64,000 nt of DNA from assembly GCF_900105885.1 (NCBI RefSeq), contig NZ_LT629780.1, forward strand, positions 2,976,001 to 3,040,000. Reading direction: 5' to 3'. Of the stretch, positions 40,735-63,727 are shown one piece after another. A program made the position numbers and the translations under genes. The stretch comes from Pseudomonas guangdongensis. Lineage in GTDB: Bacteria > Pseudomonadota > Gammaproteobacteria > Pseudomonadales > Pseudomonadaceae. Position 1 is the first letter of the stretch; each line of letters opens with the position of its first letter. The notes under the pieces were generated by a model. That model ran no database searches, was not told the origin of the DNA, and was given only the letters and a program-made list of their open reading frames with translations.

Positions 40735-40791
40735 CGAACGGTGACCAAAATGGGTTGTTGCACACTGGGCACCAAAAACAGCAGGTATAAA

Positions 40792-40823
40792 AAAATCCAA
40801 GCACCCGTAAGTGCTTGGATTTT
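40792..40823 (-). terminator. Intrinsic terminator downstream of the tRNA-Pro 3' fragment
   Basis: A 13-bp stem AAAATCCAAGCAC/GTGCTTGGATTTT with a 6-base loop and a T run on the minus strand begins 12 bp after the tRNA-Pro CCA end. It is the original terminator of that tRNA locus. Confidence 0.85.
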
Positions 40824-40834
40824 CTAGGGATTTT

Positions 40835-40879
40835 TGGTCGGGACGGAGTGATTCGAACACTCTACCCCTTGCACCCCAT
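40835..40879 (-). other. Island attachment site: 3' part of tRNA-Pro(GGG)
   Basis: Read on the minus strand, these 45 bp run from the anticodon loop (ATGGGGT, anticodon GGG at 40875-40877) through GCAAG, the T arm GAGTGTTCGAATCACTC and the acceptor strand CGTCCCG to ACCA. To the right of 40879 the expected anticodon-stem partner CTTGC and the D arm are replaced by unrelated sequence, so no cloverleaf can form. The stem-loop terminator to the left belongs to the tRNA. This is the duplicated core left by site-specific integration; the full tRNA should be rebuilt at the other end, outside this window. Confidence 0.8.
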
Positions 40880-40947
40880 AAGGGTAATTAGCTGTCTACC
40901 ACTGTCTCCCGATTTCCGTTGATCACGCTGAAACCCTTGAAAATAAA

Positions 40948-41027
40948 GGCTTTCAGGCTTTCAGTCGTCCACGGTCATCCATTAGGATTCACCTCAAGCT
41001 ACGCTCAAACGGTCACCAAACGGTCAC
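40948..41027 (+). repeat. Short direct repeats before the integrase gene
   Basis: An 8-bp tandem repeat GGCTTTCA occurs at 40948-40955 and 40956-40963. An 11-bp tandem repeat CAAACGGTCAC occurs at 41006-41016 and 41017-41027, with a third ACGGTCA at 40971-40977. Their position between att and int fits arm-type binding sites for the recombinase or its directionality factor. Confidence 0.5.
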
Positions 41028-41038
41028 GAGGAGAAGCC

Positions 41039-42385
41039 ATGGGCGAAATCACTGACAGGCAGATGGGCACCAAGCCGTCGGACAAGGATATCTGGCTGAA
41101 CGAGTCAGCCCCCAAAGGGCATGGACGCTTCATCGCACGCATCACTCCTGGCGGGGATCGCCTGTTCTACTACCGCTACACGGACTCGACCGGTAAGCGG
41201 ATTCGACTCCCTCTGGGGGCCTATGATCGTGACGGGACCTCGGGCCTTACCCTGAAAGCTGCACGTCTGCGCGCCCGAGAACTGACTGATCTTTACCTGA
41301 GCGGCATTACCGATCTGCGGGAACACCTCGAGGCCGAGGAGGCTGCACGCATTGCTGCCCGCGATGCCGAGCTGGCACGCCTGGCAGAAGAGAGGGCTGC
41401 CGCCGAAGCCGAGCAGGCACGCCAGGCTGCCCGTAAAAGCGTTGCCGACCTCTTCGAGCACTGGGCCAGGGTCGACCTTATCAACCGGAAGGATGAGGGT
41501 GCCGAAGTCCGGCGCATGTTCCAGAAGGATGTACTGCCCGTCATTGGCCATCTCGCGGTTTCTGATGTGAAGAAGGGACATATCACTGAGGTGACCGATG
41601 CGCTGCTTGCCCGGGGCGTCAATCGCATGGCCAAGCTGATCTTCAGCCTAATGCGTCAGATGTTTCGCTTTGCCGTGGATCGTGACCTGATCGAGCATGA
41701 CCCCTCGGCCAGCATTCGGAAGGCCAAGATCGGCGGTAAAGATGTCGAGCGCGATCGAGTGCTGAGCGAGGACGAGATCCGCCTTCTGGCCCAGAAGGTG
41801 TCCGGGGCTGGCTTGCTGGTCACATCCGAAGCGGCAATCTGGATTGCTCTCTCAACATGCTGCCGCATCGGTGAGTTGCTGGCGGCGCGCTGGGAGCATA
41901 TCGACTGGGACAAAGGCACCTGGCTGATTCCTGCTGATAACAGCAAAAACGGCAGAGCGCATACCGTCATGCTGTCACCTTTCGCCGTAAAGCAGTTCAG
42001 GAGGGTGCAGGAGCTCAACGGTTCTACCCCTTGGTGTTATCCGAATACTGACGGTAGCGGCCCGGTATGTCCGAAGACCGTGACCAAGCAACTGGGAGAT
42101 CGCCAGCGCTCGCCTGAGCAGGGCACCATGAGCCGGCGCAGCACAAAAGCCCAGGCCTTGTTGCTGTCCGGTGGAAAGTGGACACCTCATGACCTGCGTA
42201 GAACGGGCGCTACGCTCATGACGGCTCTCGGCGTTCTGCCAGAGGTTGCCGAACGCTGCCTGAACCACACCGAGGAAAACAAGGTGAAGCGTACCTACCA
42301 GCGGCATAGCTACATCGCAGAGATGAGCGATGCCTGGATGCGTTTGGGGGAGCACATTGAGCAGCTGACGTCGGCGGAGTTCTGA
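41039..42385 (+). CDS. Tyrosine recombinase (integrase)
   Basis: This 448-residue phage-type integrase catalyses insertion and excision of the island. The N-terminal region (residues 1-95) is the DUF4102-like arm-binding domain, residues 97-133 are an alanine/glutamate-rich helix, and the core-binding domain follows. The catalytic domain carries Arg276 (CCRIGEL), Lys303, His384 and Arg387 (HDLRRTG), His410 and the nucleophile Tyr420 (KRTYQRH); all are present, so it should be active. The start at 41039 follows GAGGAG. It reads away from the tRNA-Pro fragment 160 bp to its left. Confidence 0.94.
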   Translation: MGEITDRQMGTKPSDKDIWLNESAPKGHGRFIARITPGGDRLFYYRYTDSTGKRIRLPLGAYDRDGTSGLTLKAARLRARELTDLYLSGITDLREHLEAEEAARIAARDAELARLAEERAAAEAEQARQAARKSVADLFEHWARVDLINRKDEGAEVRRMFQKDVLPVIGHLAVSDVKKGHITEVTDALLARGVNRMAKLIFSLMRQMFRFAVDRDLIEHDPSASIRKAKIGGKDVERDRVLSEDEIRLLAQKVSGAGLLVTSEAAIWIALSTCCRIGELLAARWEHIDWDKGTWLIPADNSKNGRAHTVMLSPFAVKQFRRVQELNGSTPWCYPNTDGSGPVCPKTVTKQLGDRQRSPEQGTMSRRSTKAQALLLSGGKWTPHDLRRTGATLMTALGVLPEVAERCLNHTEENKVKRTYQRHSYIAEMSDAWMRLGEHIEQLTSAEF

Positions 42386-49401: not shown

Positions 49402-50952
49402 TCAGCCGTCCCGCGCCACCTCGAAGCCCACCACACTGCGCTGCTCGCGGCTGAATTCCACGCCGATCAGGTGGATCGGCTCGCCTCGCGCCCGGTACTT
49501 CTCGGCATAGCCACGCTCGCGGATCTGCTGCAGCGCCTTGCCCTCGGGGACCAGCTCCACCACCTTGAACTCGAACAGGTAGACCTGGCCATTGAACAGT
49601 ACGGCCATGTCGATGCGACCGAAGCTGGTGGCATCTTCAACCCGCACGTCCAGGCCCAAGGCCGCGAAGTGGCTGTAGAACACGCTGGCGTAGTAGCCCT
49701 CGTACTGGGCAATCGGATTGTTGCGATACCAGTCGTGGGGGATGCTGGCGAAGAACGCGCTGAACAGCTGCTGCAGCCCGGGGAAGTCGTTGCTGCGCAG
49801 CAGGCGATGCAGCGACATGCGCTGGCGGGCGACCGGCTGCCCCTCCGGCGACCAGGCCTTGATCAGGCTGCCATGCAGGCTCTGACGCACTTCGCGGTTG
49901 GGATAGCGCAGGCGATAGAACCAGTTGCCGTCGAGGTTGATCTCCTCGTCGATGGTCAGATAGCCCGCCTGGAACATCAGCGCCTCGGTGGCGATATTGT
50001 CCACCTCGAAGGTCGACAGCAGCTCGGCATCGGTTTCCAGCTGTCCCAGCTCCGGCAGCCAGGCCTGACGGCGAGTGAGCAGCTCGATCAGGAAGGTCGG
50101 CGTTCCCGTTTCGAACCAGAACGGGCGGAACTCGCGCTCACGGAACAAGAGCAGCAAATCGAACGGGTTGTACACCGAGGTGCCGGTCCAGTTGTAGCCG
50201 TTGTACCACTGACGGACTTCCTCCCGATCCAGTCCGGCCAGCTCCGGAGCGAATACCGTATCCACGTCCTCATCGGTGTAGCCGCAGATGGCGGAATAGC
50301 CGGGTGACAGGGTGATGTCGCGCAGATTGTTCAGCCCCGAGAACAGACTGACCTTGCTGAACTTGGATACCCCGCTGAGCATGGCGAAGCGGATATGTGC
50401 ATCCTGCCCCTTGATCACCGAATAGAGGTTGCGCAGGCCGTCGCGCATCTCGCGGGCCAGCTCAGCGTTGGCCAGATTGTCGAGAATCGGCTTGTCGTAC
50501 TCATCGACCAGCACAACGACCCGCTGACCGTGGATGCACTCAGCCTCACGGATCAGCTCGGCAAAGCGGCCAGGGATGTCTGCTGCCGTGAAGTCAGGTA
50601 ACCCGAGTCGCTGGGCGTTGACCTGCAGCAGATCGTCGATGCGGGTATCCAGCGCCTGGCGACTGTTGACCACCCCGTCGGCAAAGCTGATACGCACGAC
50701 CGGAAAGCGCCGTCCCCAGTCCCACTGCCCATGCACCACCAGGCCACGAAACAGCGGCTCGTTGCCCTCGAACAGCTCGGCCAGGGTATCGAGGAACAGG
50801 CTCTTGCCGAAGCGCCGCGGGCGGGAGAGGAAGTAGTAGTTGCCTTCCTCGATCAGCTGCAGGGCGATGCCGGTCTTGTCGACGTAGTAGCAGTCATCCT
50901 CGCGGATACGGGCGAAGGTCTGGATACCGATGGGCAGCTTCTTGCGTGACAT
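49402..50952 (-). CDS. AAA-ATPase-like protein with PD-(D/E)XK nuclease domain
   Basis: This 516-residue protein has an N-terminal AAA-ATPase-like domain (IGIQTFARIREDDCYYVDKT, Walker A-like PRRFGKSLFL near 44-53, Walker B VVVLVDEYDKPI near 145) and a C-terminal DUF1703 PD-(D/E)XK domain, with Asp in FGRIDMAV and Glu-Phe-Lys in YLFEFKVVE. Both halves are complete. The family is abundant in islands and some genomes, and its function is unproven. The GTP-like FGKS loop and the nuclease residues suggest an active enzyme. The start at 50952 fits the family N-terminus. Confidence 0.85.
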   Translation of the reverse strand: MSRKKLPIGIQTFARIREDDCYYVDKTGIALQLIEEGNYYFLSRPRRFGKSLFLDTLAELFEGNEPLFRGLVVHGQWDWGRRFPVVRISFADGVVNSRQALDTRIDDLLQVNAQRLGLPDFTAADIPGRFAELIREAECIHGQRVVVLVDEYDKPILDNLANAELAREMRDGLRNLYSVIKGQDAHIRFAMLSGVSKFSKVSLFSGLNNLRDITLSPGYSAICGYTDEDVDTVFAPELAGLDREEVRQWYNGYNWTGTSVYNPFDLLLLFREREFRPFWFETGTPTFLIELLTRRQAWLPELGQLETDAELLSTFEVDNIATEALMFQAGYLTIDEEINLDGNWFYRLRYPNREVRQSLHGSLIKAWSPEGQPVARQRMSLHRLLRSNDFPGLQQLFSAFFASIPHDWYRNNPIAQYEGYYASVFYSHFAALGLDVRVEDATSFGRIDMAVLFNGQVYLFEFKVVELVPEGKALQQIRERGYAEKYRARGEPIHLIGVEFSREQRSVVGFEVARDG

Positions 50953-51007
50953 GGCAGGCAACCTGTAGGCAGATGCGGCGATTGTAGCCGAAGGGATGCG
51001 GGCAGGC

Positions 51008-51697
51008 TCAGTTGGAGCAAACGTAGTGGACGCCAAGCTCCGTGGCAGCAACGGCTACTTGCCGTGCAACCAGCGCCCTCTGCGCATGCCAGCCGGGAAT
51101 CTCGCTGCCATCACTGCCGATGCCCAGCCCATGCTTCCAGTACGACAAGTAAGCCTCGCCACGATCAGCTGCGTAGTAGTTGCCATTGCCGGCAGAGTAG
51201 TCGAGCGCATACTGCCAGTTGTTTTCGCGCATGCAAACGCCATGCTCAGGGTGTAGCAGTTGGCCCAGCCCGATCAGGTATTCGGCACTCTTGGCATCCA
51301 GCGGCCGGAATACCGCGACCCTCAGGCGGCCATCCTCGCGGGCACTGATGGCGGCAACCAGGCTTTCCTCGCGCTGGATGGTGACCAGCTCACCCGCTAG
51401 ATCCACCGGCCCCAGCTCCAGCCACCAGTCATCGCCCATCACGGGAGCGGCAGCTCGACCATCGTCCGCGGTCAGCAACTGGGCCAGCCGATTCATGGCC
51501 GGCTCGTAGTGTCGCCAGTCCACACCAGCTTCGGCGCCATGCTGCTGCAGAGCCTGCAGCATGACCGCCAGCGGCAACTCGCCATCCAGGGACAGAGCTG
51601 CCTGCAGGTCGCCCGGTGGCAGCGGATAGGCAATGTCCGGCAGGCCGTAGCGGGCCAGGATTTCGGGCTTGAGGTGGATCTCAGCGGTATGCGGCAT
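51008..51697 (-). CDS. Hypothetical protein
   Basis: This 229-residue protein begins MPHTAEIHLKPEILARYGLPD and has no signal peptide or clear membrane helix. Regions such as DDWWLELGPVDLAGELVTIQ and NNWQYALDYSAGNGNYYAAD look like a compact alpha/beta domain. I do not recognise a family. AAGAGA precedes the chosen ATG; an upstream in-frame ATG lacks a ribosome site. It lies between the AAA/nuclease gene and a secreted protein gene on the same strand. Confidence 0.6.
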   Translation of the reverse strand: MPHTAEIHLKPEILARYGLPDIAYPLPPGDLQAALSLDGELPLAVMLQALQQHGAEAGVDWRHYEPAMNRLAQLLTADDGRAAAPVMGDDWWLELGPVDLAGELVTIQREESLVAAISAREDGRLRVAVFRPLDAKSAEYLIGLGQLLHPEHGVCMRENNWQYALDYSAGNGNYYAADRGEAYLSYWKHGLGIGSDGSEIPGWHAQRALVARQVAVAATELGVHYVCSN

Positions 51698-52669: not shown

Positions 52670-55600
52670 TCATACGACCTCCAGAGGGTTGCGCTCCAGG
52701 CGCTGTATCAGCTCAGAAGCGGTCAACTCGGATTTCTTCTTCTTGGTTTTCTCGATCAAGCGATAACCAACATCCAGGGCAGACTCCATCATCACTTTGG
52801 GCACATCCAGATGCCCAATTCCCCCACTTTGCATCCAGACTGGCTGGATTAAGCCATGGCCGAGACAACTTTTATAGCTATCCGATATTTCGGAAATACG
52901 CAGACCTCTCTCACGACGCACGACGTGTCCCTCGACATCTCGGAGCAATTCCGTTGCGAGATCCTTGGTGTGTCCGCGCCGTAAGGAAGCATCCATAAGG
53001 CGCTGAAGCGTCAGGTTATTGGTCAGCACCTGGGCTGCCGCTTGTTGCTGATTGAGCCTTTCGACAGCTCCTACTCGAAGTAGGGTACGAGCAATCAACT
53101 GAGCATCCTCCGCCACCTTCTCTGCATAACCGTTCAACGTGGCATCAGGAACAACATCGCCACTGACCCCATGGCTCTCTAGTTCATCAAATTTCTGCGC
53201 CAGGCGCGAAGCACCACTTTCCGTATCGCAGAAAGCGATTGCTGCCTGACGGATACCATCTGACTCTGCCAAAATCACCTGCACGGCTCCACCTGCCTCT
53301 GCAAGAGCGGTCAAATGGGTAAGCAGATGATCGAAAACAGGATCTCCGTAGCTGGCGAAGTGTAGAGGCTCCTCGCCAGGCAGTCCGACATCCATGAGCT
53401 CACGATCAACCGTCAGGTTGGATCCATCAATCAGCGGATCCACACCATTCAAAGTGATGTATCGGGCGCAAGGGCTGAACTGGCAACCACACGACTTCAA
53501 ATATTCCGACTCAATCAACGATCTCCATATCTGAGCCAGTGTTACTGGCAGCGGCAGTGACCGATACTGCATCTCCAGTCGAGTGTAGATATCGAAAAGC
53601 TCTTGAGCTGGAATTTCAAGAAGCTTGTTGTGCTCACGTTGCTGCCTGGCTCGCTCCAAAGCAATCTTTTCTAGCTGCTGCTCATCAAGCGTCTTTGCCG
53701 CAAGCTGCTCAAACTCATCTACCGTGACAGGCAGCAGGGAGAACTGCTGCGTGCCGACAACCAATCCAGCCTTTTCCAGGCGCTGCATGAGTCGCTCATA
53801 GACAAACTGTTCAGCAGAGTCCGCATAGCAAAGATTCAACACTGAAATTTCACTGTGCCGCTGCCCAATGCGGTCAATCCGCCCGATTCGCTGCTCCACC
53901 TTCATGGGGTTCCAAGGCAAATCGAAGTTGATCAGCATGTCTGCTGTTTGCAAGTTCAATCCTTCAGCAGCCGCATCGGTACATACAAGGATATCAATTT
54001 CCCCTTGAACGAAACGGTGCTTGATTTTCTCCCTCTCACAGCCAACCATGCTTAGCAGATCCACGTCGAAGTAAGAGCCGCCCTGGCCGGAGTAGGTGCC
54101 TATACGGGCATGCGGATGAACTGCCTGAATCCGCTCGACGATGTCCTCCAGCGTGTCGAAGAAGCGAGTAAAAATCACCGTTTGCTGAATACGCCCAGAG
54201 GGTTGCTTCCTCCGCCCCAACACCATCAGCAAAACCTGCATCTTGGAAGAAACCTGCGAGAGATCCTCTACTTCCTGCCGCAAGGCTTGTAGGCAATCAC
54301 GCTCCCAACGGAGGTCTTCCGGGGTTCGGTTGCGCAACAAACTGTCCACGGCCTCCAGGTCGTCCTCTCCACCCTCCAAGAGAAGATCTTCCAGCTCGGC
54401 TCGGTCTTCGGCAGAAGTGCTTTCGCTGAGTTGCTGGATCAAGGTGGCTTGTACGCGATCAAGGCGGCGCTGCACCGTCAGCTTCAGTGCTCGCAGACTG
54501 GATGCGAAACGCAAACGCAGGAAGCTCAGATAGAAACCCAGCGCGGTCTGATTAGGCTTGCACTCACCATTATTAAGCATTGCCTCACGCAAACCTTCGC
54601 AGTACTCATGCAAAAAGCTTTCAACCCTTGCTTCCTGCGGGGTGAAGACAATGCGTGGTGGCGTGATGACTTGTCGCTTGGCCAAACCAGCCTTCAGTTT
54701 ACCCTTGTTGCGGTAGATCTTGAGCAAGTCTCGAGTATGCCGCTGCATGACTCTAGACAGAGGAGCTGCCGCAAACAGCAGCCGCGCCAAGGCCGGATGA
54801 TTGATGGATTGCGGCACAACTCCGCTCTTCAGCCACTGCTCCAGGTCGATCTTGGAAAACGGGTCAATCACAACCTCCAGGAGATATCGCCACAAGACCG
54901 GATCCAGGTGTTCAATGCTGGTGACTGCCGCCCGCAATAGCGCCCACTCTTCACGCTCCAGCGCCTGTCCCTGACTGAGGGCGGCCGTGAGCTGGTAGTA
55001 CCTGAGAGTGAGGGATGGGTCATATTTGAAAGCTCCTACCCGATTGGTCAGGGCAATCAGGTCACTGACCTCCACAGGATCGAGCTGCATTGGGGTTGCC
55101 GTCGCCAACAACAGACTCTTCGTAGCTGGTCGGATCAGATCCTGAAGTGTCTTGTACAGGTTGTTGTACTGCGGATAGCCACGCACTCCGCGTTGCGAGT
55201 TGGAGCGCCGGGCATAGTGGGACTCATCGAGCAGCACCAGGTCAAACTGTTGTGCGCTCTTGAGTGCCTGGCGTCGCTCCTGGCGCGTCATCAGGCCAGT
55301 GGAAATGATCGATAGATCCGCGTCATACAAGCCCGATGCAGGAGCACTCCCTTCCTGCGGTAGAAGGTAGTCCAGTTGCAATGAAGGACCGGAGCGCACA
55401 CGACGGAATGGCAAAAGAAACTTACTGGCCATCTCCCGCTGCCATTGCTGCGTAAGACTGGCCGGTGCGGCGATCAGTATCCGCTTGGCCCGCTCGCTCA
55501 AGTACAGCGCGCGGAAAACCAGCCCGGCCTCGATGGTCTTGCCCAACCCCACCTCATCGCACATCAGACCCGATGCTGGGTAGTTATCGATCAGACGATG

Positions 55601-56503
55601 AGCTACGACAATCTGATGCGGCCAGGGTTGGACAGGTGCCGTATACAGACCGACATACTGTCCGTTGGGCATCAGCGGAGCGTACTTGATCAGCTGGAAG
55701 CGCGCCTGCTCCAGCGGCGAGAGCGTGGGCCGCTCCAACAAAGCAGGCTTTCCATCCATCTCCACCGGGAACTGAATCTGCTCGGAGAAGCTGATCAGCC
55801 GCTCCTTGACCGCTGTTGGCAGGTCGACAACCTTGAAAGCCGGGTGCTGATCGTTCCACAGCGCTTCGAAGTCGCGCTGAGCATCAGCGATCTTGGCCTG
55901 CTCCTTGGATCCCTGCCATGAGCAGTCCACATCCACGTTTTCGGCGTTATGCGCCAATGCCGTTTGCGACTCGTTCCAGGAACCACTGGCATAGAGGCAA
56001 TTGCCTTCGGCATCGTAAGCAAGCGCCCACTTCTCGTGAACATACCCATCAACGCCGGAGTCAAGGGAGATAGCTTGTCCTGTCTGACTATGCACCCGCA
56101 AAGCGACACGGATCTCCAGATAGCCTTGCCGAACCATCCAGGACAGCAGCTCTACGCCGCGCAATTCGGCCTCGCGCCATTGCGCCGGATTGTCCAGCGC
56201 CTCTTGCAAGGCGTCATCGAGCTTGCCTTGGCCATTTATGATGGCCTGTACGTCCTGAGGGTGCAGGTCAGCGCCTGCAATCAGTCTCACCTTGCCGTCA
56301 CGGCTTACAAATGTCGAGAAACCACGCGATGCCAAAGCCAGAGAACTGGAGCGAAAGTAACCAGCTACCCGATCGTAACGCACGGCACGCTGTAGCAACG
56401 GGATATAGAACTCACGCAGGATGTCGACCGTATGGCCATCCTTGGTCAGTGAGGAGGTCTTGTAGCTATAGCGCCATGGATAATCGGCAAGACTCGTCGA
56501 CAT
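52670..56503 (-). CDS. SNF2-family helicase with N-terminal phospholipase-D-like domain
   Basis: This 1277-residue protein joins two activities. Residues 30-200 are phospholipase-D-like, with H156, K158 and D164 (HEKW then AYD) and a GSWNES loop, as in PLD nucleases of defence systems. The SNF2/RapA-like ATPase follows: Walker A GLGKT (Lys322), DESH at 426-429, ATATPM, then the C-terminal lobe with TDAAAEGLNLQ and RIGRIDRIGQRH. The start at 56503 is chosen after AGGGAAG; a longer frame reaches the terminator. It probably translocates on or remodels invading DNA. A terminator separates it from the methylase, so it needs its own promoter or readthrough. Confidence 0.88.
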   Translation of the reverse strand: MSTSLADYPWRYSYKTSSLTKDGHTVDILREFYIPLLQRAVRYDRVAGYFRSSSLALASRGFSTFVSRDGKVRLIAGADLHPQDVQAIINGQGKLDDALQEALDNPAQWREAELRGVELLSWMVRQGYLEIRVALRVHSQTGQAISLDSGVDGYVHEKWALAYDAEGNCLYASGSWNESQTALAHNAENVDVDCSWQGSKEQAKIADAQRDFEALWNDQHPAFKVVDLPTAVKERLISFSEQIQFPVEMDGKPALLERPTLSPLEQARFQLIKYAPLMPNGQYVGLYTAPVQPWPHQIVVAHRLIDNYPASGLMCDEVGLGKTIEAGLVFRALYLSERAKRILIAAPASLTQQWQREMASKFLLPFRRVRSGPSLQLDYLLPQEGSAPASGLYDADLSIISTGLMTRQERRQALKSAQQFDLVLLDESHYARRSNSQRGVRGYPQYNNLYKTLQDLIRPATKSLLLATATPMQLDPVEVSDLIALTNRVGAFKYDPSLTLRYYQLTAALSQGQALEREEWALLRAAVTSIEHLDPVLWRYLLEVVIDPFSKIDLEQWLKSGVVPQSINHPALARLLFAAAPLSRVMQRHTRDLLKIYRNKGKLKAGLAKRQVITPPRIVFTPQEARVESFLHEYCEGLREAMLNNGECKPNQTALGFYLSFLRLRFASSLRALKLTVQRRLDRVQATLIQQLSESTSAEDRAELEDLLLEGGEDDLEAVDSLLRNRTPEDLRWERDCLQALRQEVEDLSQVSSKMQVLLMVLGRRKQPSGRIQQTVIFTRFFDTLEDIVERIQAVHPHARIGTYSGQGGSYFDVDLLSMVGCEREKIKHRFVQGEIDILVCTDAAAEGLNLQTADMLINFDLPWNPMKVEQRIGRIDRIGQRHSEISVLNLCYADSAEQFVYERLMQRLEKAGLVVGTQQFSLLPVTVDEFEQLAAKTLDEQQLEKIALERARQQREHNKLLEIPAQELFDIYTRLEMQYRSLPLPVTLAQIWRSLIESEYLKSCGCQFSPCARYITLNGVDPLIDGSNLTVDRELMDVGLPGEEPLHFASYGDPVFDHLLTHLTALAEAGGAVQVILAESDGIRQAAIAFCDTESGASRLAQKFDELESHGVSGDVVPDATLNGYAEKVAEDAQLIARTLLRVGAVERLNQQQAAAQVLTNNLTLQRLMDASLRRGHTKDLATELLRDVEGHVVRRERGLRISEISDSYKSCLGHGLIQPVWMQSGGIGHLDVPKVMMESALDVGYRLIEKTKKKKSELTASELIQRLERNPLEVV

Positions 56504-56600
56504 TATCAGCTTCCCTATTTCTTCCTTGCTATTGATACGCAGAGCATCGACCAACCGGCCAACCATGACGGCAGCCTTACTAAAATTACTGATTACTCCC

Positions 56601-56626
56601 AAAAAACGGGCGCCGAAGCGCCCGTT
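56601..56626 (-). terminator. Intrinsic terminator between methylase and helicase genes
   Basis: On the minus strand a 9-bp stem AACGGGCGC/GCGCCCGTT with the stable TTCG loop is followed by a run of T. It begins just after the methylase stop codon. Confidence 0.85.
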
Positions 56627-56632
56627 CCACTA

Positions 56633-59600
56633 TCAATGGGTTTTCAGACCAAACAGAATCGTCTTGGCCTCGTTACGCAGCTCTGGCGTTTCGGCCTCCG
56701 CAGCCCAGACCTCCAGCAGATCCAGTACGGTGTTTTCACGCCCCTCACGGTGCTGATCCAGATAGGCACGTGCCACGGGAATATCGCCGGAGCGGTAGCA
56801 CATGATCAGACCATGCAACACGTCCCAATCCGATTGCGGCTTGGCAATACGTCGCTTGTCGCGCTCCTCTGGCTTGGCCAAGCGGAGCTTGGAACCTTTT
56901 TTGAGTAGCGGCGCGGCGTAACCGACGGTTTCCACTGAGGCGCCCTTACGCTTGGCGCCGGACTCCTCGGTGTTGTAGGCAACCAGGCGATCCTCAACCC
57001 CATAACCCGCCACCCGACTCTCCAGGCGGAAGTTCAGCGATTTGGAGAGGTTCAGAGCCTCACTGTAGGCAACATCATTGTGCCCCCAGATGCCGTAAAC
57101 CGTCAGCGCCATGGCGGTTTCGGTATCCAGGTCATCTACGGTGATGCGCCCTTCCGTGATATCGCGAATCTGATGCTCTGCGACAACCCGACTGGCCTCG
57201 TTCATGGCTCGGATCGGATTTACTTCTTCATCGCCATCCATTACTGGCCAGTTTTCCGAAAGAACCTGCAACGCACGACCATAGCAGGCAATCATCTTGT
57301 CTACCGGATTCAGATTCAGAGCCGAAAACTCATCGAGAGCCCCCTCGACCGAGTCACGAATTTTACTCTGTACGCCCCTCCCACCGAGGCCAGTCCAGAC
57401 AGCGGGGAACGGCTGATCAGCCTGACGTTTGCGGCAGGTAATAAAGATTGAGCTGGCAGCTGCTGCTAGGTCTTTCTGGTGGGTCGAATAGCTACTTTCA
57501 GACTCAACTGGAAAGCTAGAAGTAATTACCCAGCCAGAGTCAATAAGAGAGCGCGTCAATGTTTCCCAAGCGTCCTGCTCTTTATGAGTAAACATCAACG
57601 TCATCAGCCCATCGAGCCTCACAACACGATGACACTCTTTAAATATTTCCAACATTAACCCTTCATAGACCGCCTTTGCTTTTGCCTTTGACCCTGCCAG
57701 TGCAGGATTTGCAACAGCTTCATCAACCTTATTAGTCAATCGCGGCCAAACAATCTCAGGATACAACTCCTTAAGATTACGCTTCATCCAAACATAAAAG
57801 AAATCAGAAAGCTCTGCATACTGAACATTGTTATAATAGGGCGGATCCATGCACACCAAATCAACGCTTGAGGAGTCGACCCCAGAAATGCTTGCACCAG
57901 ACCCGTTTATGATTTTCGGAATGGAAATTGAATTCAACTCACGACCAGCTGAAACCAAACTACAAATACCCTTATAGCTATCAAGTATTTGGCTTAAGCC
58001 CCATTTTAGCCCAGAAAAAGGCCCAGAAAAAACCATTTCCCCATAAGTCCACTTAAGCGAAAAATCATGCCGCCCAAAAGTGCCCTTTATAACCCCCCGA
58101 GTAAATTCCCAGCGAGTGTGCTTACTGTTGTAGTCTAGAGCCTTATCGAGAGCAAACTGCAAATAGGTAACTACAGCCCGCCCCTTAGCAGCTCCACACG
58201 CTTCAATAACCTTCTCTCTCAAGTCATTTAGAGCCTTCAGCGCAGTCAAGTGAGCAAGTATCTGGCGCGAATTAAACATATCGAGCCACTTAACTATGCC
58301 AAAATTTACAATTCCATCTCGTTGATCTCGACGATGCCCATACGGGATAGGCTCCGTAGGTATTAACCCCTGCAAATCGAACTCATCCCACTTCCGCTCA
58401 AGCTCTTTCCACGCCTCATCTATTGCAAGGAAATCTTTCTCAGAAGCTATGCGAAAAAACCTAACTTTCTCAACCTTTAACTCTCCAGCCCGCTCACCTG
58501 TCGAATATCTCTGTGGTTTTCCTTGACTGTCCAAGCTGGGTTGATATCTGGACGAAACCACTACATAAAGCCGGTCTTTCCATAGCCCATGCACAGAGTC
58601 CCCCCTGGCCTGAGATTTTATTTCATCACCGCTTATTGCCTGCCTACAGTGCACACACTGCCCAACCCCACGATCAACAGTGGCAAGCTCAGGATCTTCA
58701 CCGTTTGGCCCCTTACCACCTGTTAACACCTGATAGGTTTCGAAGCGGTAATTCGCCGAAGCCCCCTGTCCCTGAGGGATAATTTTCACCCCCCAGGGAT
58801 CAGCGGCCTCCTTGGAGAGCCAACAGGTATTCAGCAGCGGCGTCTTGGCCAAGCAACTGGGACAAGTCACCTCGCGGCAATAGAGCAGGCCGTTCTGGTC
58901 GTACTCCGGCTGGTTGAACTGATCGAACAGCTCAGGGTAATGCTCAAGATGCTTGCGCAAGCGATCCTGTTCGTATTTTGGCAGTGGCGAGAAGGGGTAG
59001 AAAGGCGCCATCTGGCTTTCGACCCTCTCCCGCATGATGTTGCCCCAATGCTCGATATCGTCGTACAGACTCATGCCAAAGCGGGCCGGGTAATCCAGGG
59101 TCGCATATAGAATGGTGGTGGCGACCGGATTCAGCTCGTTGGCGATCACGTTGTGACCGAGGCGCAGGGCCTCGAACGGAATAGAACCGCCCCCCGAGGT
59201 TGGATCGAGTACCGTCAGACCGCTGGGCTTGGGAGCATGGTCGTTCTGATACGCACGGGCATACCCGTAGAGATCCTCGGCATCCCACTTGATCTCCTTA
59301 CCAAGAATCGCCTTGACCTCAGGCAGCTTGGCAAACTCGATGCGCTCGTTGACGTGCGCCGGATCAGCCATGACCCGCTCGACGGTCAACCACTGCCCGG
59401 CATGAATCTGCCCCAACGGCCGGGACTCCGCCTCCCAACGCAGCATAACCGGGTGTCTTGCCAGCTCCGGACTTTGCGCCTTGAGCTGCGCGATCTGTTG
59501 CAGGCTTTCCTCCCGGCGCTCCTGCTCACTGTCGAAGGCACGCAAGACCACGGGGTCGACCTTCAACCGCTCACCATCAGCGGTCTTCTCCAGGCGCCCC

Positions 59601-59869
59601 AGCAGTTTGCCGACGATAACCCAGTGCTGCCCTCCCAGGGTTACGACTCGCTTCTCGATGCCAAGCTCCTTGACGAAGCTCTCCACATCGGTATCGGCAG
59701 GCAGCAACGATCCCGCTACCGCCGCGCGGCTGGGCGTCAACGGGCGACGTGCCCACCAGACATGAAGAAAGTACAGTGGCGGGAGGGCTGAACTGGCTCC
59801 TCGCTCTCGCTGGGTTTCTGCACCTACCTGGTGGCAGGGAAAGCCTGCCTCGATCAGTCTGCGATCCAT
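56633..59869 (-). CDS. DUF1156 zinc-ribbon adenine-specific DNA methyltransferase
   Basis: This 1078-residue protein resembles COG1743-type adenine methylases. The N-terminal DUF1156 segment (RRLIEAGFPCHQVGAETQRE, then VWWARRPL) is intact. SAM-binding motif I is DPTSGGGS (222-229) and the catalytic motif IV is DPPY (675-678). Two zinc knuckles, C336/C339 and C405/C408, lie between them. The start at 59869 follows AGGAAG. The central part (codons about 450-800) is clearly more AT-rich than both flanks. It would mark host DNA, so that unmodified DNA is attacked by the partner proteins; the recognised site is unknown. Confidence 0.88.
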   Translation of the reverse strand: MDRRLIEAGFPCHQVGAETQRERGASSALPPLYFLHVWWARRPLTPSRAAVAGSLLPADTDVESFVKELGIEKRVVTLGGQHWVIVGKLLGRLEKTADGERLKVDPVVLRAFDSEQERREESLQQIAQLKAQSPELARHPVMLRWEAESRPLGQIHAGQWLTVERVMADPAHVNERIEFAKLPEVKAILGKEIKWDAEDLYGYARAYQNDHAPKPSGLTVLDPTSGGGSIPFEALRLGHNVIANELNPVATTILYATLDYPARFGMSLYDDIEHWGNIMRERVESQMAPFYPFSPLPKYEQDRLRKHLEHYPELFDQFNQPEYDQNGLLYCREVTCPSCLAKTPLLNTCWLSKEAADPWGVKIIPQGQGASANYRFETYQVLTGGKGPNGEDPELATVDRGVGQCVHCRQAISGDEIKSQARGDSVHGLWKDRLYVVVSSRYQPSLDSQGKPQRYSTGERAGELKVEKVRFFRIASEKDFLAIDEAWKELERKWDEFDLQGLIPTEPIPYGHRRDQRDGIVNFGIVKWLDMFNSRQILAHLTALKALNDLREKVIEACGAAKGRAVVTYLQFALDKALDYNSKHTRWEFTRGVIKGTFGRHDFSLKWTYGEMVFSGPFSGLKWGLSQILDSYKGICSLVSAGRELNSISIPKIINGSGASISGVDSSSVDLVCMDPPYYNNVQYAELSDFFYVWMKRNLKELYPEIVWPRLTNKVDEAVANPALAGSKAKAKAVYEGLMLEIFKECHRVVRLDGLMTLMFTHKEQDAWETLTRSLIDSGWVITSSFPVESESSYSTHQKDLAAAASSIFITCRKRQADQPFPAVWTGLGGRGVQSKIRDSVEGALDEFSALNLNPVDKMIACYGRALQVLSENWPVMDGDEEVNPIRAMNEASRVVAEHQIRDITEGRITVDDLDTETAMALTVYGIWGHNDVAYSEALNLSKSLNFRLESRVAGYGVEDRLVAYNTEESGAKRKGASVETVGYAAPLLKKGSKLRLAKPEERDKRRIAKPQSDWDVLHGLIMCYRSGDIPVARAYLDQHREGRENTVLDLLEVWAAEAETPELRNEAKTILFGLKTH

Positions 59870-59892
59870 TGGGTCAACTCTTCCTAAATCTG

Positions 59893-60486
59893 TTAGCGCA
59901 GCTTGTCGAGCATGCGTTGAATACCATCGTCTTTGTTGCTGGTGCCGGTCAGCATGATGCGCAGACCACTGATCGCCCAACGATTTGCGTCGGCACCGTA
60001 GCTGGTGGTGCGAGCCAGCCAATAGGCGGCTTCCTCGCGGCTGAAACGCATGATGCGTCGAGCCAGTAACTCGATGCGATCCGGGTTGTGCAGGCGCTCC
60101 TGCAAACGGAACAGCAAGGCCAACTTGGCACCCGCCTCCTCGTCGAGCGGCAGGTTGTCACGAAGCTTCAGGCCCTCCTTGTTGAAGAAGCGCTGCAACT
60201 CCATGGGTACGCCTGCTTCATCGCAAACCCCTTCGACCATGCGCTTGAGCAGGGGGATCAGGCATTTGAGGCTCTCGCCATAGAGGTGGCCGCGATCCTG
60301 AAGATTGCCTAGCTGCTGCAGGTTGCGCTCTTCAGCGCGGGTTTCACTGGAAACCCGCTCCTTGATCACGACGACAGTGCCGGTGATGTCCTTCCACTCG
60401 GTAAAACGCAATACGAAAGGCGCCTTGCGCCAGCGATTTTTCAGGCGCTGGTCGTAATGGGCTTGCAGGGAAACAGGCTTACTCAT
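59893..60486 (-). CDS. Small partner protein of the defence set (DUF3780-like)
   Basis: This 197-residue soluble protein overlaps the upstream ATPase gene by 8 bp and ends 23 bp before the methylase, so it is translated from the same mRNA. Sequence features are an N-terminal KNRWRKAPFVLRFTEWKDI, an acidic hydrophobic core and a C-terminal REEAAYWLARTTSYGAD. Its position between a DUF499 ATPase and a DUF1156 methylase matches the DUF3780-type partner of such systems, but I cannot confirm the family. No catalytic motif is visible; a DNA-binding or adaptor role is a guess. Confidence 0.65.
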   Translation of the reverse strand: MSKPVSLQAHYDQRLKNRWRKAPFVLRFTEWKDITGTVVVIKERVSSETRAEERNLQQLGNLQDRGHLYGESLKCLIPLLKRMVEGVCDEAGVPMELQRFFNKEGLKLRDNLPLDEEAGAKLALLFRLQERLHNPDRIELLARRIMRFSREEAAYWLARTTSYGADANRWAISGLRIMLTGTSNKDDGIQRMLDKLR

Positions 60487-63400
60487 TTGTGTGCTTTACC
60501 AGATCAAAGAAGGCACAGGACTCCGGAACCTGATGGATGTCGATCTGTGCCTGGGTCTCGCTTCCCTGCTTGGTGAGGTCGCCCAGTACCTCGAACAGTT
60601 CGGCCAGCAGCTTCATCTCTTTGGGAGAAACCTTGACCAGGTCGATATTGATTTTCCCGCCTTCAGGCAGCTCCAAGCCACTCATGCGGAGCAAATCGAT
60701 GCGGGTATTCGCGCCTTTGGCATACAGCGACCCGAGCTTACGCAGATTTGCGTGCAGGACCTCGGCCAGCTGTTTTCCCTGCGCCGTAAAACGAGTGTCC
60801 TCAGGCTCGACCCAGCCGTATTCAGAGGCCTCCGCTGGAGTGATGAGGATGTCGTTGACACTGGTCTTGTGGAAATAGGCATTGGAGCCATAGACCAGAT
60901 CTGGAGCGGTTCCCTCGCCGGCCGGCACCGGGTCGTTGCTCTCGGTAGGCGTGTAGGTGTAGACCTTGGCTTTCTGTACCGCGTTGTCGATTGCCGTCAG
61001 GATGGTCGAGTCCTTGATCTCACCATGCTGCTGCTTCACTGCTGCCAGCACATCAGCAACCTTGGTATGCGGCTTGAGCTGCATCGCCTGCGCAACCCAC
61101 TGCTCGACTTGTTCGGGAGCGGGCTCAGCTTGTGGATTCCAACCACGCTGCAACGCACCCTGTACGCTGACCAGCTTCCATCCAGCCTGCGAGAGGTTGA
61201 GATCCATCGGCAACGCACCGGTATCTCGGCTGTAGAACTCAGCAGGCTTCTGATCCTCGGCAGAGGTGAAGCGGTACAGGCACCACTGGCCACGCTCGAC
61301 GCCAGCACGCAGCAGTGTATCGAGAACATTCTTCTGCTCGAGGATCGGCCAGCGGCGATTCTGGGCAAGCTGGCTGCGAATCTGCTCGATTGATGGCGTC
61401 TGGCTGAGGTGGAAGAACATCTGCCCCAGCAAAATCAGCATTTCGCTGGTGGTGGCCTTTTCCATGGTCACCATCTCACCCTCGCCGGAGAGTACACGGA
61501 GAATTTCGGCATCCACCGACTGTCCGCCTTCGCCACCCGCCTGCTTGATCATCTTCTTGGTGGTGGCACCAGAAGCCCCCGGGAAGTAGATCGCTTCATA
61601 AGCCTGGGAGACTGCCGTCTGCAACGCCAGCTCACGCTCGCGGAGCTTGCTCTTGAACCCGCTCTCCACCAGCTTGGCGGCCGTCATGCCGAAATCTTCC
61701 GGCTTGTGATCGAGGCGGCGCATGGCCAGCACCGTGCGGGTGAGGTCCTCCAGGCGCTCGATACGGTAGCGGGCTTTATTGGTGCGATCTTCGTTCCAGG
61801 TTTCACCCTTGATCTGTACGGTTTCCGGAACCAGCAAGAACACGTAGTTCTGGTGCAAGCGCGGCGTGTTTCCGCCGCAACTGGTGATCATGGCTTCAGC
61901 ATCGATGCGGTTGGCATCCAGGCGCACAATGGCCAGCACCGGTCGGTCGGTCTTGTCGGGAATGTCCTCGGGCTGCGACACGTCCTGCGCTACCACGAAG
62001 GTCGGGCTATTGTGGGTGACCACCTTGCGGCTGACGATGGCCAGGTGCTCCCCCACCGCATCCGGACTAATGCCCTGTTTGATGGTGCTGACGATCCGCG
62101 CCTCGGTCGGATCGGTATGGGCGTAAAAACGGCCTTCGTTATCTCGAAGGTAGTAGGCTTCGTCTGCGATGGCCTTGAGCGCCGTCTCTACCTGGGCAGG
62201 AGTCATATCCGGCATAGCCGTTTCAAACAGTGCTTCGGAGTAACTGACGCCGAACAGGTTGGAGGAGAGACCCTCTCCACGCCCGACGAGGCTATGCAGG
62301 AACACGACCTTCCAGGTCCACTCGTAGAGAGGGAACTCCAACGGGTGTGGATTCTTCTTGTCCAGCGCCTGGGCAACCGAAGCCCCCAACTCAAGACTAC
62401 CGCTGTCGGCGCCCCCCACATCGGCGTTGAGAACGGTGATCAGGTCTGATGCACCTGTCCGCCCAACCACCTCGTCTGCTACATCGGGGTTCGCCAGATC
62501 GATATGGCAGGTATGCACCAGGGCCAACTTGGTGTTCTTCTTCCAGAGGCTACGGATGGCCATGGCCAAAACACGCAGGACGCCACGAGTGCCCTGGAAG
62601 TTCTGGACGGTGGACAGCTTGTTGGTCAGGAAGCTGATGAAGCTGGGATGGAAGGGGTAGTTGTTGGTGATGACTTGCTCGAAATCAGCACGGCTTGCCT
62701 GGTCTGGCAGCTGAGCACCACTCTTCTGGTACATCGCCATGTAGGCCTGCGCAGTCTCCTGAGCGGCACTGTGGTCGATGGAGACAAACAGGCGACGAGC
62801 CAGCACTCGGGAAATTTCGGTCGCACGTACCGGTACGGTCGTGGTGGCATCACGCGAAACGACACTGAGGATGGCCTTGCCAGCCTTCTCGGCCAGAGCT
62901 TCGGCTTCGTCGGTATCCACAGCGCGCCCAAGCGTTTGTTGCAGAACACCTGCCAACATGCCGGTTTGCTGACGGAAGGCATCCTGCTGACTGGCCAGCG
63001 TGACCACTACCGAAATGCCGCTGTGGGTACGGGCATAACCCAGCAGCCCCATCAGGAAAGCGCCGATCTGATCACCACCGCCTAGATGAGCGGCCTCGTA
63101 GCGAGTCGCATACTGCGCCAACTCGTCCATCATGATCAGTACCTTGCGGGTACCGAAGAGACGCTCTAGGAAGTACTTGCCAGGGAAGGCCGTTGAGGTG
63201 ACTTCCTTGAGGTTTTCCCGGTAGAAGTTTTCGCCCCCCAGACGCAGGGCCAGTTCCCCCCACAGGGTATAGGGAAGGATCTCCTCACCGCTGGGCTCGA
63301 TGACCGGCATCTCATCGCAGGCGATACCGACGATGTCGACACTGCCTTCCGGGAGCAGAAACTCGGCCTCGATGACCTCCTTGGCTACCTCCGCAATGCT

Positions 63401-63727
63401 CGAACCACGTTTGGCGAGGTGAACCAGGGAAATCAGCGTATGGGTCTTACCACCACCAAAGGAAGTTTCCAGTCGGTGGATGGCCGGGAGGGAATTATCA
63501 CCAGAAAGGCGACCAAACACGTCCCGAACAACCCGCCGCAAACCCTCCGTCGGAAAGGTTGCCTGAGTGAAGAACAGGCCGGCATCGGTGTAGATGTTGT
63601 CCGTGCTGGTACCCTTTCCTGAGTAGGCATCCAGTACCTGGCTCAACGAAGCCGTGAAAATCTCCGGGTTGAACGATCCCGCGATAATGTCGGGACGGGG
63701 GATGCAGGTCTGCAAAATCGGCTTCAT
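60479..63727 (-). CDS. DUF499 (COG1483-like) AAA ATPase
   Basis: This 1082-residue protein is the first gene of the defence operon. The P-loop is GGGKTHT at residues 91-97 (LETSFGGGKTHT, the family hallmark), and Walker B has Asp201-Glu202 (VLIMMDELAQY). A long helical C-terminus follows, with little low-complexity sequence. The family is related to the large P-loop proteins of BREX (PglY/BrxC). GGAGG precedes the ATG. Its last 8 bp overlap the start of the partner gene. It is probably the energy-using assembly or checkpoint subunit that links methylation to interference. Confidence 0.88.
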   Translation of the reverse strand: MKPILQTCIPRPDIIAGSFNPEIFTASLSQVLDAYSGKGTSTDNIYTDAGLFFTQATFPTEGLRRVVRDVFGRLSGDNSLPAIHRLETSFGGGKTHTLISLVHLAKRGSSIAEVAKEVIEAEFLLPEGSVDIVGIACDEMPVIEPSGEEILPYTLWGELALRLGGENFYRENLKEVTSTAFPGKYFLERLFGTRKVLIMMDELAQYATRYEAAHLGGGDQIGAFLMGLLGYARTHSGISVVVTLASQQDAFRQQTGMLAGVLQQTLGRAVDTDEAEALAEKAGKAILSVVSRDATTTVPVRATEISRVLARRLFVSIDHSAAQETAQAYMAMYQKSGAQLPDQASRADFEQVITNNYPFHPSFISFLTNKLSTVQNFQGTRGVLRVLAMAIRSLWKKNTKLALVHTCHIDLANPDVADEVVGRTGASDLITVLNADVGGADSGSLELGASVAQALDKKNPHPLEFPLYEWTWKVVFLHSLVGRGEGLSSNLFGVSYSEALFETAMPDMTPAQVETALKAIADEAYYLRDNEGRFYAHTDPTEARIVSTIKQGISPDAVGEHLAIVSRKVVTHNSPTFVVAQDVSQPEDIPDKTDRPVLAIVRLDANRIDAEAMITSCGGNTPRLHQNYVFLLVPETVQIKGETWNEDRTNKARYRIERLEDLTRTVLAMRRLDHKPEDFGMTAAKLVESGFKSKLRERELALQTAVSQAYEAIYFPGASGATTKKMIKQAGGEGGQSVDAEILRVLSGEGEMVTMEKATTSEMLILLGQMFFHLSQTPSIEQIRSQLAQNRRWPILEQKNVLDTLLRAGVERGQWCLYRFTSAEDQKPAEFYSRDTGALPMDLNLSQAGWKLVSVQGALQRGWNPQAEPAPEQVEQWVAQAMQLKPHTKVADVLAAVKQQHGEIKDSTILTAIDNAVQKAKVYTYTPTESNDPVPAGEGTAPDLVYGSNAYFHKTSVNDILITPAEASEYGWVEPEDTRFTAQGKQLAEVLHANLRKLGSLYAKGANTRIDLLRMSGLELPEGGKINIDLVKVSPKEMKLLAELFEVLGDLTKQGSETQAQIDIHQVPESCAFFDLVKHTNE

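Follow-up and report, generated by a model that had tools for sequence, protein, structure and literature searches.

What kind of system is encoded by a set of four adjoining genes in Pseudomonas guangdongensis? The set lies in a 64,000-nt stretch of DNA, here called the window (assembly GCF_900105885.1, contig NZ_LT629780.1, positions 2,976,001-3,040,000, forward strand). Four open reading frames (ORFs), all on the minus strand, occupy positions 52670-63727 of the window (genome position 3,028,670-3,039,727) and encode, in order of transcription, a DUF499 ATPase, a DUF7680 protein, a DUF1156 methylase, and an SNF2 helicase. An initial annotation had described a DNA-modification defence set in an integrative island, with Hma systems as the closest match. 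We propose, with a probability of about 0.68, a restriction-modification (RM)-like innate anti-phage system of the DUF499-centred, BREX-related (BR)/Hma kind, which would form a deep lineage of its own, sister or nearly sister to the subtype with DUF3780 and an HKD-helicase. Apparently, it is a deep, unnamed branch of a known family.

Genes and catalytic motifs

The ORFs and their Pfam families confirmed the annotated arrangement on one strand with short gaps or overlaps: the ORFs of the ATPase and DUF7680 overlap by 8 bp, and 23 bp lie between DUF7680 and the methylase. Pfam assigned SNF2 and Helicase_C, DUF1156, DUF7680 (E 8.7e-39), and DUF499 with DUF7744 (E 4.8e-36). All catalytic motifs were present in the window proteins, namely HEKW and GSWNES (HKD), the SNF2 motifs, GGGS, DPPY, and Walker A and B, the former with the GGGKTHT P-loop recognized before. 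Key catalytic residues were at least 97% conserved in 38 helicases, 60 methylases, and 74 ATPases, counts that include the window proteins and a few duplicate records. The set of four genes is genuine and appears intact, and from their sequences the proteins look active.

The PLD-like domain ascribed to the helicase was recovered by an NCBIfam model that matched residues 61-967 with 355.8 bits (under its cut-off of 1100), by matches to the PADLOC models PLD_Helicase and PbeA, and by the conserved HxK...GxxNES motif, whereas the Pfam PLD model did not reach E 1e-3. About 345 aa downstream of the helicase motor were without a Pfam match. The methylase is counted here from its ATG; its reading frame stays open to 60022. 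It is a DUF1156 methylase as annotated, but what had been read as two zinc knuckles consists of a pair of CxxC motifs, CPSC and CVHC, which likelier form one four-cysteine zinc ribbon.

Relation to the published subtypes

According to PMC12839542, BR systems comprise Type-1 (identical with Hma, PMC8565338), Type-2 (HKD-helicase and DUF3780), and Type-3 (PglZ). The DUF499-centred kind combines a DUF499 ATPase, a DUF1156 N6-methylase, and an SNF2 helicase in one operon, and all three were found in the window operon. For archaea, the earlier paper PMC7641849 describes operons in which the SNF2 helicase is fused to a nuclease of the PD-(D/E)XK or PLD type.

Profile scores were compared using one reference locus per type (L117 for Type-1, L128 for Type-2). 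The PADLOC models HmaA, HmaB, and HmaC reached 178, 219, and 242 bits in the window versus 2160, 1662, and 1433 bits in L117, i.e., 6 to 12 times less. PLD_Helicase, DUF1156_MTase, and DUF499 reached 261, 124, and 122 bits versus 925, 1217, and 690 bits in L128, i.e., 3.5 to 10 times less. The NCBIfam scores of the window (355.8, 184.9, and 169.3) all missed their cut-offs (1100, 1000, and 1200). The profile searches returned DUF499, DUF1156, and weak PADLOC defence matches, but not the DUF3780 against which the small partner was to be checked: Pfam assigned this protein to DUF7680, and a DUF3780 match was found nowhere in the genome. Since PADLOC and NCBIfam give only weak or partial Hma and PLD-helicase matches, profile searches probably miss or misfile a lineage that spans seven phyla.

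The set might be a divergent Hma (Type-1 BR) system, its ATPase and methylase being of Hma origin and the HKD nuclease and DUF7680 having been swapped in later. Hma was indeed the best PADLOC match for these two proteins, which match HmaC and HmaB better than the Type-2 models, although with scores far under those of the Hma locus; a divergent locus among the other BR loci, L131, was equally low with HmaC (240 bits; HmaB 391). A helicase, a DUF1156 methylase, and a DUF499 ATPase are common to both, and PtuA and HEC genes occur inside relatives of the window set. However, the Hma core has three genes, whereas the window set has four in another order; all seven other-BR loci that contain these three genes (7/7) read helicase-methylase-ATPase. 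The nuclease of Type-1 helicases is a C-terminal PD-(D/E)XK or NOV_C domain, and the window helicase has an N-terminal HKD motif instead. This helicase resembles the PLD-helicase found with DUF3780 more than that of Hma. At its C-terminus no Pfam nuclease was found, an unrecognised one being possible, whereas L117 and L131 show NOV_C there. Furthermore, the ATPases of DUF7680 loci form a clade apart from 17 other-BR rows. A divergent Hma system is hence unlikely.

Phylogenetic trees were calculated for the ATPase (29 DUF7680, 7 DUF3780, and 17 other-BR rows; no BrxC root), the helicase (25, 8, and 7 rows, with RapA as root), and the methylase (21, 8, and 12 rows). Type-3 BR is apparently unrepresented, as no PglZ was found near DUF499 in the reference genomes, where some contigs are short. 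The DUF7680 rows formed one clade in each tree, and in the RapA-rooted tree the motors of the helicases from DUF7680 and DUF3780 loci joined at 98/95. The layout, the HKD helicase, and this rooted helicase tree point to an affinity with Type-2.

Alternatively, the set could be a Type-2 subfamily whose DUF3780 diverged into DUF7680, rather than a lineage of its own rank. Both have the order ATPase-small protein-methylase-helicase, an N-terminal HKD on the SNF2 helicase, sister helicase motors, and a small protein with the same predicted order of main elements. In Type-2, however, the small protein is a standalone DUF3780 in place of DUF7680, the helicases of L128 and L150 are about 350-400 aa shorter than the window helicase, and DUF7744, present at the C-terminus of the window ATPase, is absent from the two Type-2 ATPases tested. 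DUF7744 was found in the window and in 4/5 other DUF7680 ATPases tested, but in 0/4 reference ATPases. In the trees of ATPase, helicase, and methylase alike, the rows with DUF7680 and those with DUF3780 fall into separate clades, the Type-2 profile scores are low as given above, and DUF3780 is also present in 7/46 searched DUF7680 genomes, so that the two systems coexist. Hence, we regard the subfamily explanation as doubtful.

Type-3 BR and BREX share with the window set an RM-like logic of ATPase, methylase, and helicase (PMC12839542) but have PglZ as a core gene, in BREX together with BrxC and PglX. In agreement with the annotation, no PglZ lies in or near the set; a single PglZ was found genome-wide, at 2,445,684, about 0.58 Mb away, within a separate BREX locus (L157 12235-16897, ~2.444-2.449 Mb; PglZ 938 bits, BrxL 1142 bits). 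Genes near this BREX locus resemble insertion sequence (IS) transposases by eye. DISARM, which has a core of DrmA, DrmB, and DrmC, is similar in having a methylase and an SNF2 helicase, to whose DrmD that of the window is distantly alike; neither DrmB nor DrmC appeared in the listed PADLOC matches of the four set proteins (for the helicase, the best 25 of 48), and one weak DrmA-labelled model was among these best 25 of 48 of the helicase. Judged by these comparisons, the window set fits the BR kind but none of the published subtypes, and represents a distinct lineage within that broader kind.

Conservation of the operon and the role of DUF7680

A scan of one genome per species yielded 152 DUF7680 relatives, many from metagenome-assembled genomes. 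The best 80 were kept, and neighbour pairs were counted in the 80 fetched loci, some of which are closely related, leaving out L035, L054, and L082 as fragmented. The order ATPase-DUF7680-methylase-helicase was held in the scorable neighbour pairs of 73, 66, and 51 loci, respectively, and the 29 DUF7680 rows of the ATPase tree came from seven phyla. The genes for ATPase and DUF7680 were separated by an insert longer than 400 bp in 0/73 loci, which suggests that DUF7680 works on the ATPase.

The other two gaps are insertion slots in relatives (L008-L087). Between methylase and helicase the gap exceeded 400 bp in 24/51 loci, 19 of them containing an ORF of 150 aa or longer on the same strand; between DUF7680 and methylase it exceeded 500 bp in 16/66 loci, eight with such an ORF (one methylase piece uncounted). 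Twenty selected gap proteins were scanned, and Pfam families were matched at E ≤ 0.01 by 17 of them, including one transposase and one match below its cut-off. The other matches include GmrSD (4), AAA_21-type ATPases, RloB, Schlafen (2), RNA ligase (2), and Abi_2; PADLOC added PtuA (Septu) and an HEC-03 pair. Such GmrSD, Septu, Schlafen, RloB, or Abi genes amid the core genes of relatives support a defence role. Septu embedded within Hma is reported in PMC12255303, and effectors embedded in BREX and BR systems in PMC12839542. The window copy itself is without an embedded effector gene. For two gap proteins, in L012 (364 aa) and L016 (310 aa), neither Pfam nor PADLOC gave a match within the limits applied, which makes them candidates for new effectors. 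Additionally, a divergent DUF7680 (23% identical) was observed at L135 (G291 contig 34) beside a methylase and an HKD-helicase in pieces; a gene between them resembles an HD-phosphohydrolase by eye.

The same gene order was found with DUF3780. Seven of nine DUF3780 loci have all four genes, each ordered ATPase-DUF3780-methylase-helicase; of the remaining two, L153 begins at a contig end without the ATPase, and L156 likewise lacks an ATPase and has its methylase in pieces. The AlphaFold2 (AF2) model of DUF7680 (197 aa; predicted local distance difference score, pLDDT, 87.2; predicted template modelling score, pTM, 0.84) has four main strands (E) and five main helices (H): E24-29, E38-45, E61-68, H70-84, E111-114, H116-131, H135-146, H150-161, and H165-180, with extra helices at both ends and two short helices at 97-106. 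The DUF3780 model (pLDDT 75.7) has E17-22, E29-36, E50-58, H59-79, E91-95, H96-109, H116-128, H131-142, and H155-164. The order of main elements, EEE-H-E-HHHH, is common to both models. In a sequence-only profile alignment, which was not significant, 122/167 residue pairs had the same state, as compared to 48-104 at 12 other shifts. According to the models, the two proteins likely share a fold; their common descent is unproven.

Several results weigh against a separate lineage near Type-2. All three trees gave long-branch warnings, the helicase root is a single, very long RapA row, and the methylase tree does not unite the other-BR rows. By raw score, ATPase and methylase are closer to other-BR (Type-1-like) rows than to Type-2; thus, a simple sister-of-Type-2 history does not fit, and the lineage may be a mosaic. 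Alignment of DUF7680 with DUF3780 by hhalign was not significant (P 0.077, 1/12 column shuffles higher, reversed profile lower); with other sequence sets, P was 0.11 (local) and 0.021 (global), with 26/200 shuffles as high. No confident PDB match was obtained for either AF2 model, and the rows listed for the two share no entry. Furthermore, some operons are broken: L045 has DUF7680 alone, L071 lacks methylase and helicase within ~10 kb, and L017 lacks a helicase within ~6 kb; genes are in pieces at L035, L054, L082, L083, and L086. The equation of DUF7680 with DUF3780 from sequence alone was dropped as unproven, these profile comparisons being not significant, and was kept as a structural argument.

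For the proposed RM-like system, a way of working can be suggested from the protein families and the RM-like working model in PMC12839542; from these we infer DNA methylation at a particular site, DNA cleavage, what DUF7680 does, and in which order the steps follow. The DUF1156 methylase would place an N6-methyladenine (m6A) mark at a specific site of the host DNA. Together with its closely coupled partner DUF7680, the DUF499 ATPase would load on DNA and check for this mark; on unmarked DNA the ATPase would recruit or license the SNF2 translocase, whose single HKD domain would have to pair with a second copy, as a dimer, to cut. DUF7680, as the putative structural counterpart of DUF3780, may be the adaptor or reader between the ATPase and the rest. 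More tentatively, and at somewhat less than even odds, the lineage might be a fourth, cross-phylum DUF499-centred type in which DUF7680 and DUF3780 belong to one hitherto unrecognised superfamily, a dedicated mark reader that rides on the ATPase and licenses the HKD helicase-nuclease, and in which the operon hosts exchangeable second-line effectors in its two gaps.

DUF7680 and DUF7744 were found in none of the article texts of the searched open-licence literature, and DUF7680 loci may be listed without that name in the supplementary tables of PMC12839542. In the same literature DUF3780 occurs in one paper, DUF1156 in three, and DUF499 together with DUF1156 in one. The comparison links DUF7680 to DUF3780, two small families of unknown function with no confident PDB match found. 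Moreover, which component of BREX-like systems detects the absence of the methyl mark becomes a testable question in a simple four-gene set without PglZ.

Helicase start, hairpin, and genomic island

Table 1. Features of the window with their positions and strands.
Feature	Position	Strand	Evidence
SNF2-family helicase, one HKD (PLD-like) nuclease motif at the N-terminus	52670..56602	-	ORF, Pfam, PADLOC, NCBIfam, motif
DUF1156 N6-adenine-type DNA methyltransferase, DPPY and GGGS motifs, two CxxC pairs	56633..59869	-	Pfam, PADLOC, motif
DUF7680 protein, 197 aa	59893..60486	-	Pfam, AF2 model
DUF499 AAA+ ATPase, Walker A FGGGKTHT, Walker B IMMDE, C-terminal DUF7744	60479..63727	-	Pfam, PADLOC, motif
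Terminator-like hairpin, UUCG loop and six T, between methylase stop and helicase	56600..56625	-	
Left att-like repeat, duplicating the sequence that surrounds the tRNA-Pro(GGG) 3' end	40782..40879	not assigned	
Tyrosine integrase of the island	40919..42385	+	Pfam

The helicase ORF opens at a TTG, and an alternative ATG is located at 56503. The ATG is the likelier start because the TTG falls in the T-run of the terminator-like hairpin (dG -22.4, z -3.7). This hairpin could hold the nuclease level below that of the methylase. As a conserved regulator of the methylase-helicase gap it was rejected, a similar hairpin being present in just 2/52 other loci; at the other two gaps of relatives similar hairpins were found in 0/69 and 0/76. 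A general terminator scan of the region, which gave 12 terminator-like sites versus a shuffle mean of 9.9, did not list it.

A 98-bp repeat with two mismatches was found at the left att-like site, adjoined by the integrase, and at window-equivalent positions 71667-71764 outside the window. The second copy contains the 3' end of tRNA-Pro(GGG), the gene of which is at window-equivalent 71720-71796. The repeat pair thus delimits an island of about 31 kb that includes the integrase and the defence set. The annotated tRNA-Pro island is hence borne out by integrase and repeats, with the correction that the tRNA-Pro gene itself lies outside the window; the gene families and this location agree with the predicted DNA-modification defence set in an integrative island. 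Other island genes encode YqaJ, DUF932, a recombination-directionality-factor-like protein, and RadC inside the window, and an ADP-ribosylglycohydrolase, a YagK/YfjJ-type protein, DUF3987, and an IS66 transposase beyond it. The ADP-ribosylglycohydrolase gene (L002 10302-11483, minus strand) is near the defence set, upstream of the ATPase gene. An AAA-ATPase_like and PDDEXK_9 gene at window 49402-51051 (minus strand), also within the island, is a possible defence or mobility gene.

An island with an integrase and plasmid- and phage-like genes could also mean that the set serves the island itself (addiction, competition with other elements, maintenance) more than phage defence. Relatives, however, come from many phyla and carry anti-phage genes inside the operon, and island and defence roles are compatible with each other; we consider such island service very unlikely as the primary role and retain the anti-phage reading.

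Searches of plasmid and phage collections with DUF7680 gave no match at E 1e-5; the evidence for mobility is therefore the island and not these collections. The window ATPase had 130 matches in plasmid records, every one below 60% identity, and two loci, L166 and L167, were from viral contigs. DUF7680 was present in 1/298 searched genomes of the host family, which is the host itself, and in 4/398 of the phylum, host included. A 95% identical DUF7680 (P0001) appeared in a search listing under Pseudomonas aeruginosa, which suggests a recent transfer of the lineage.

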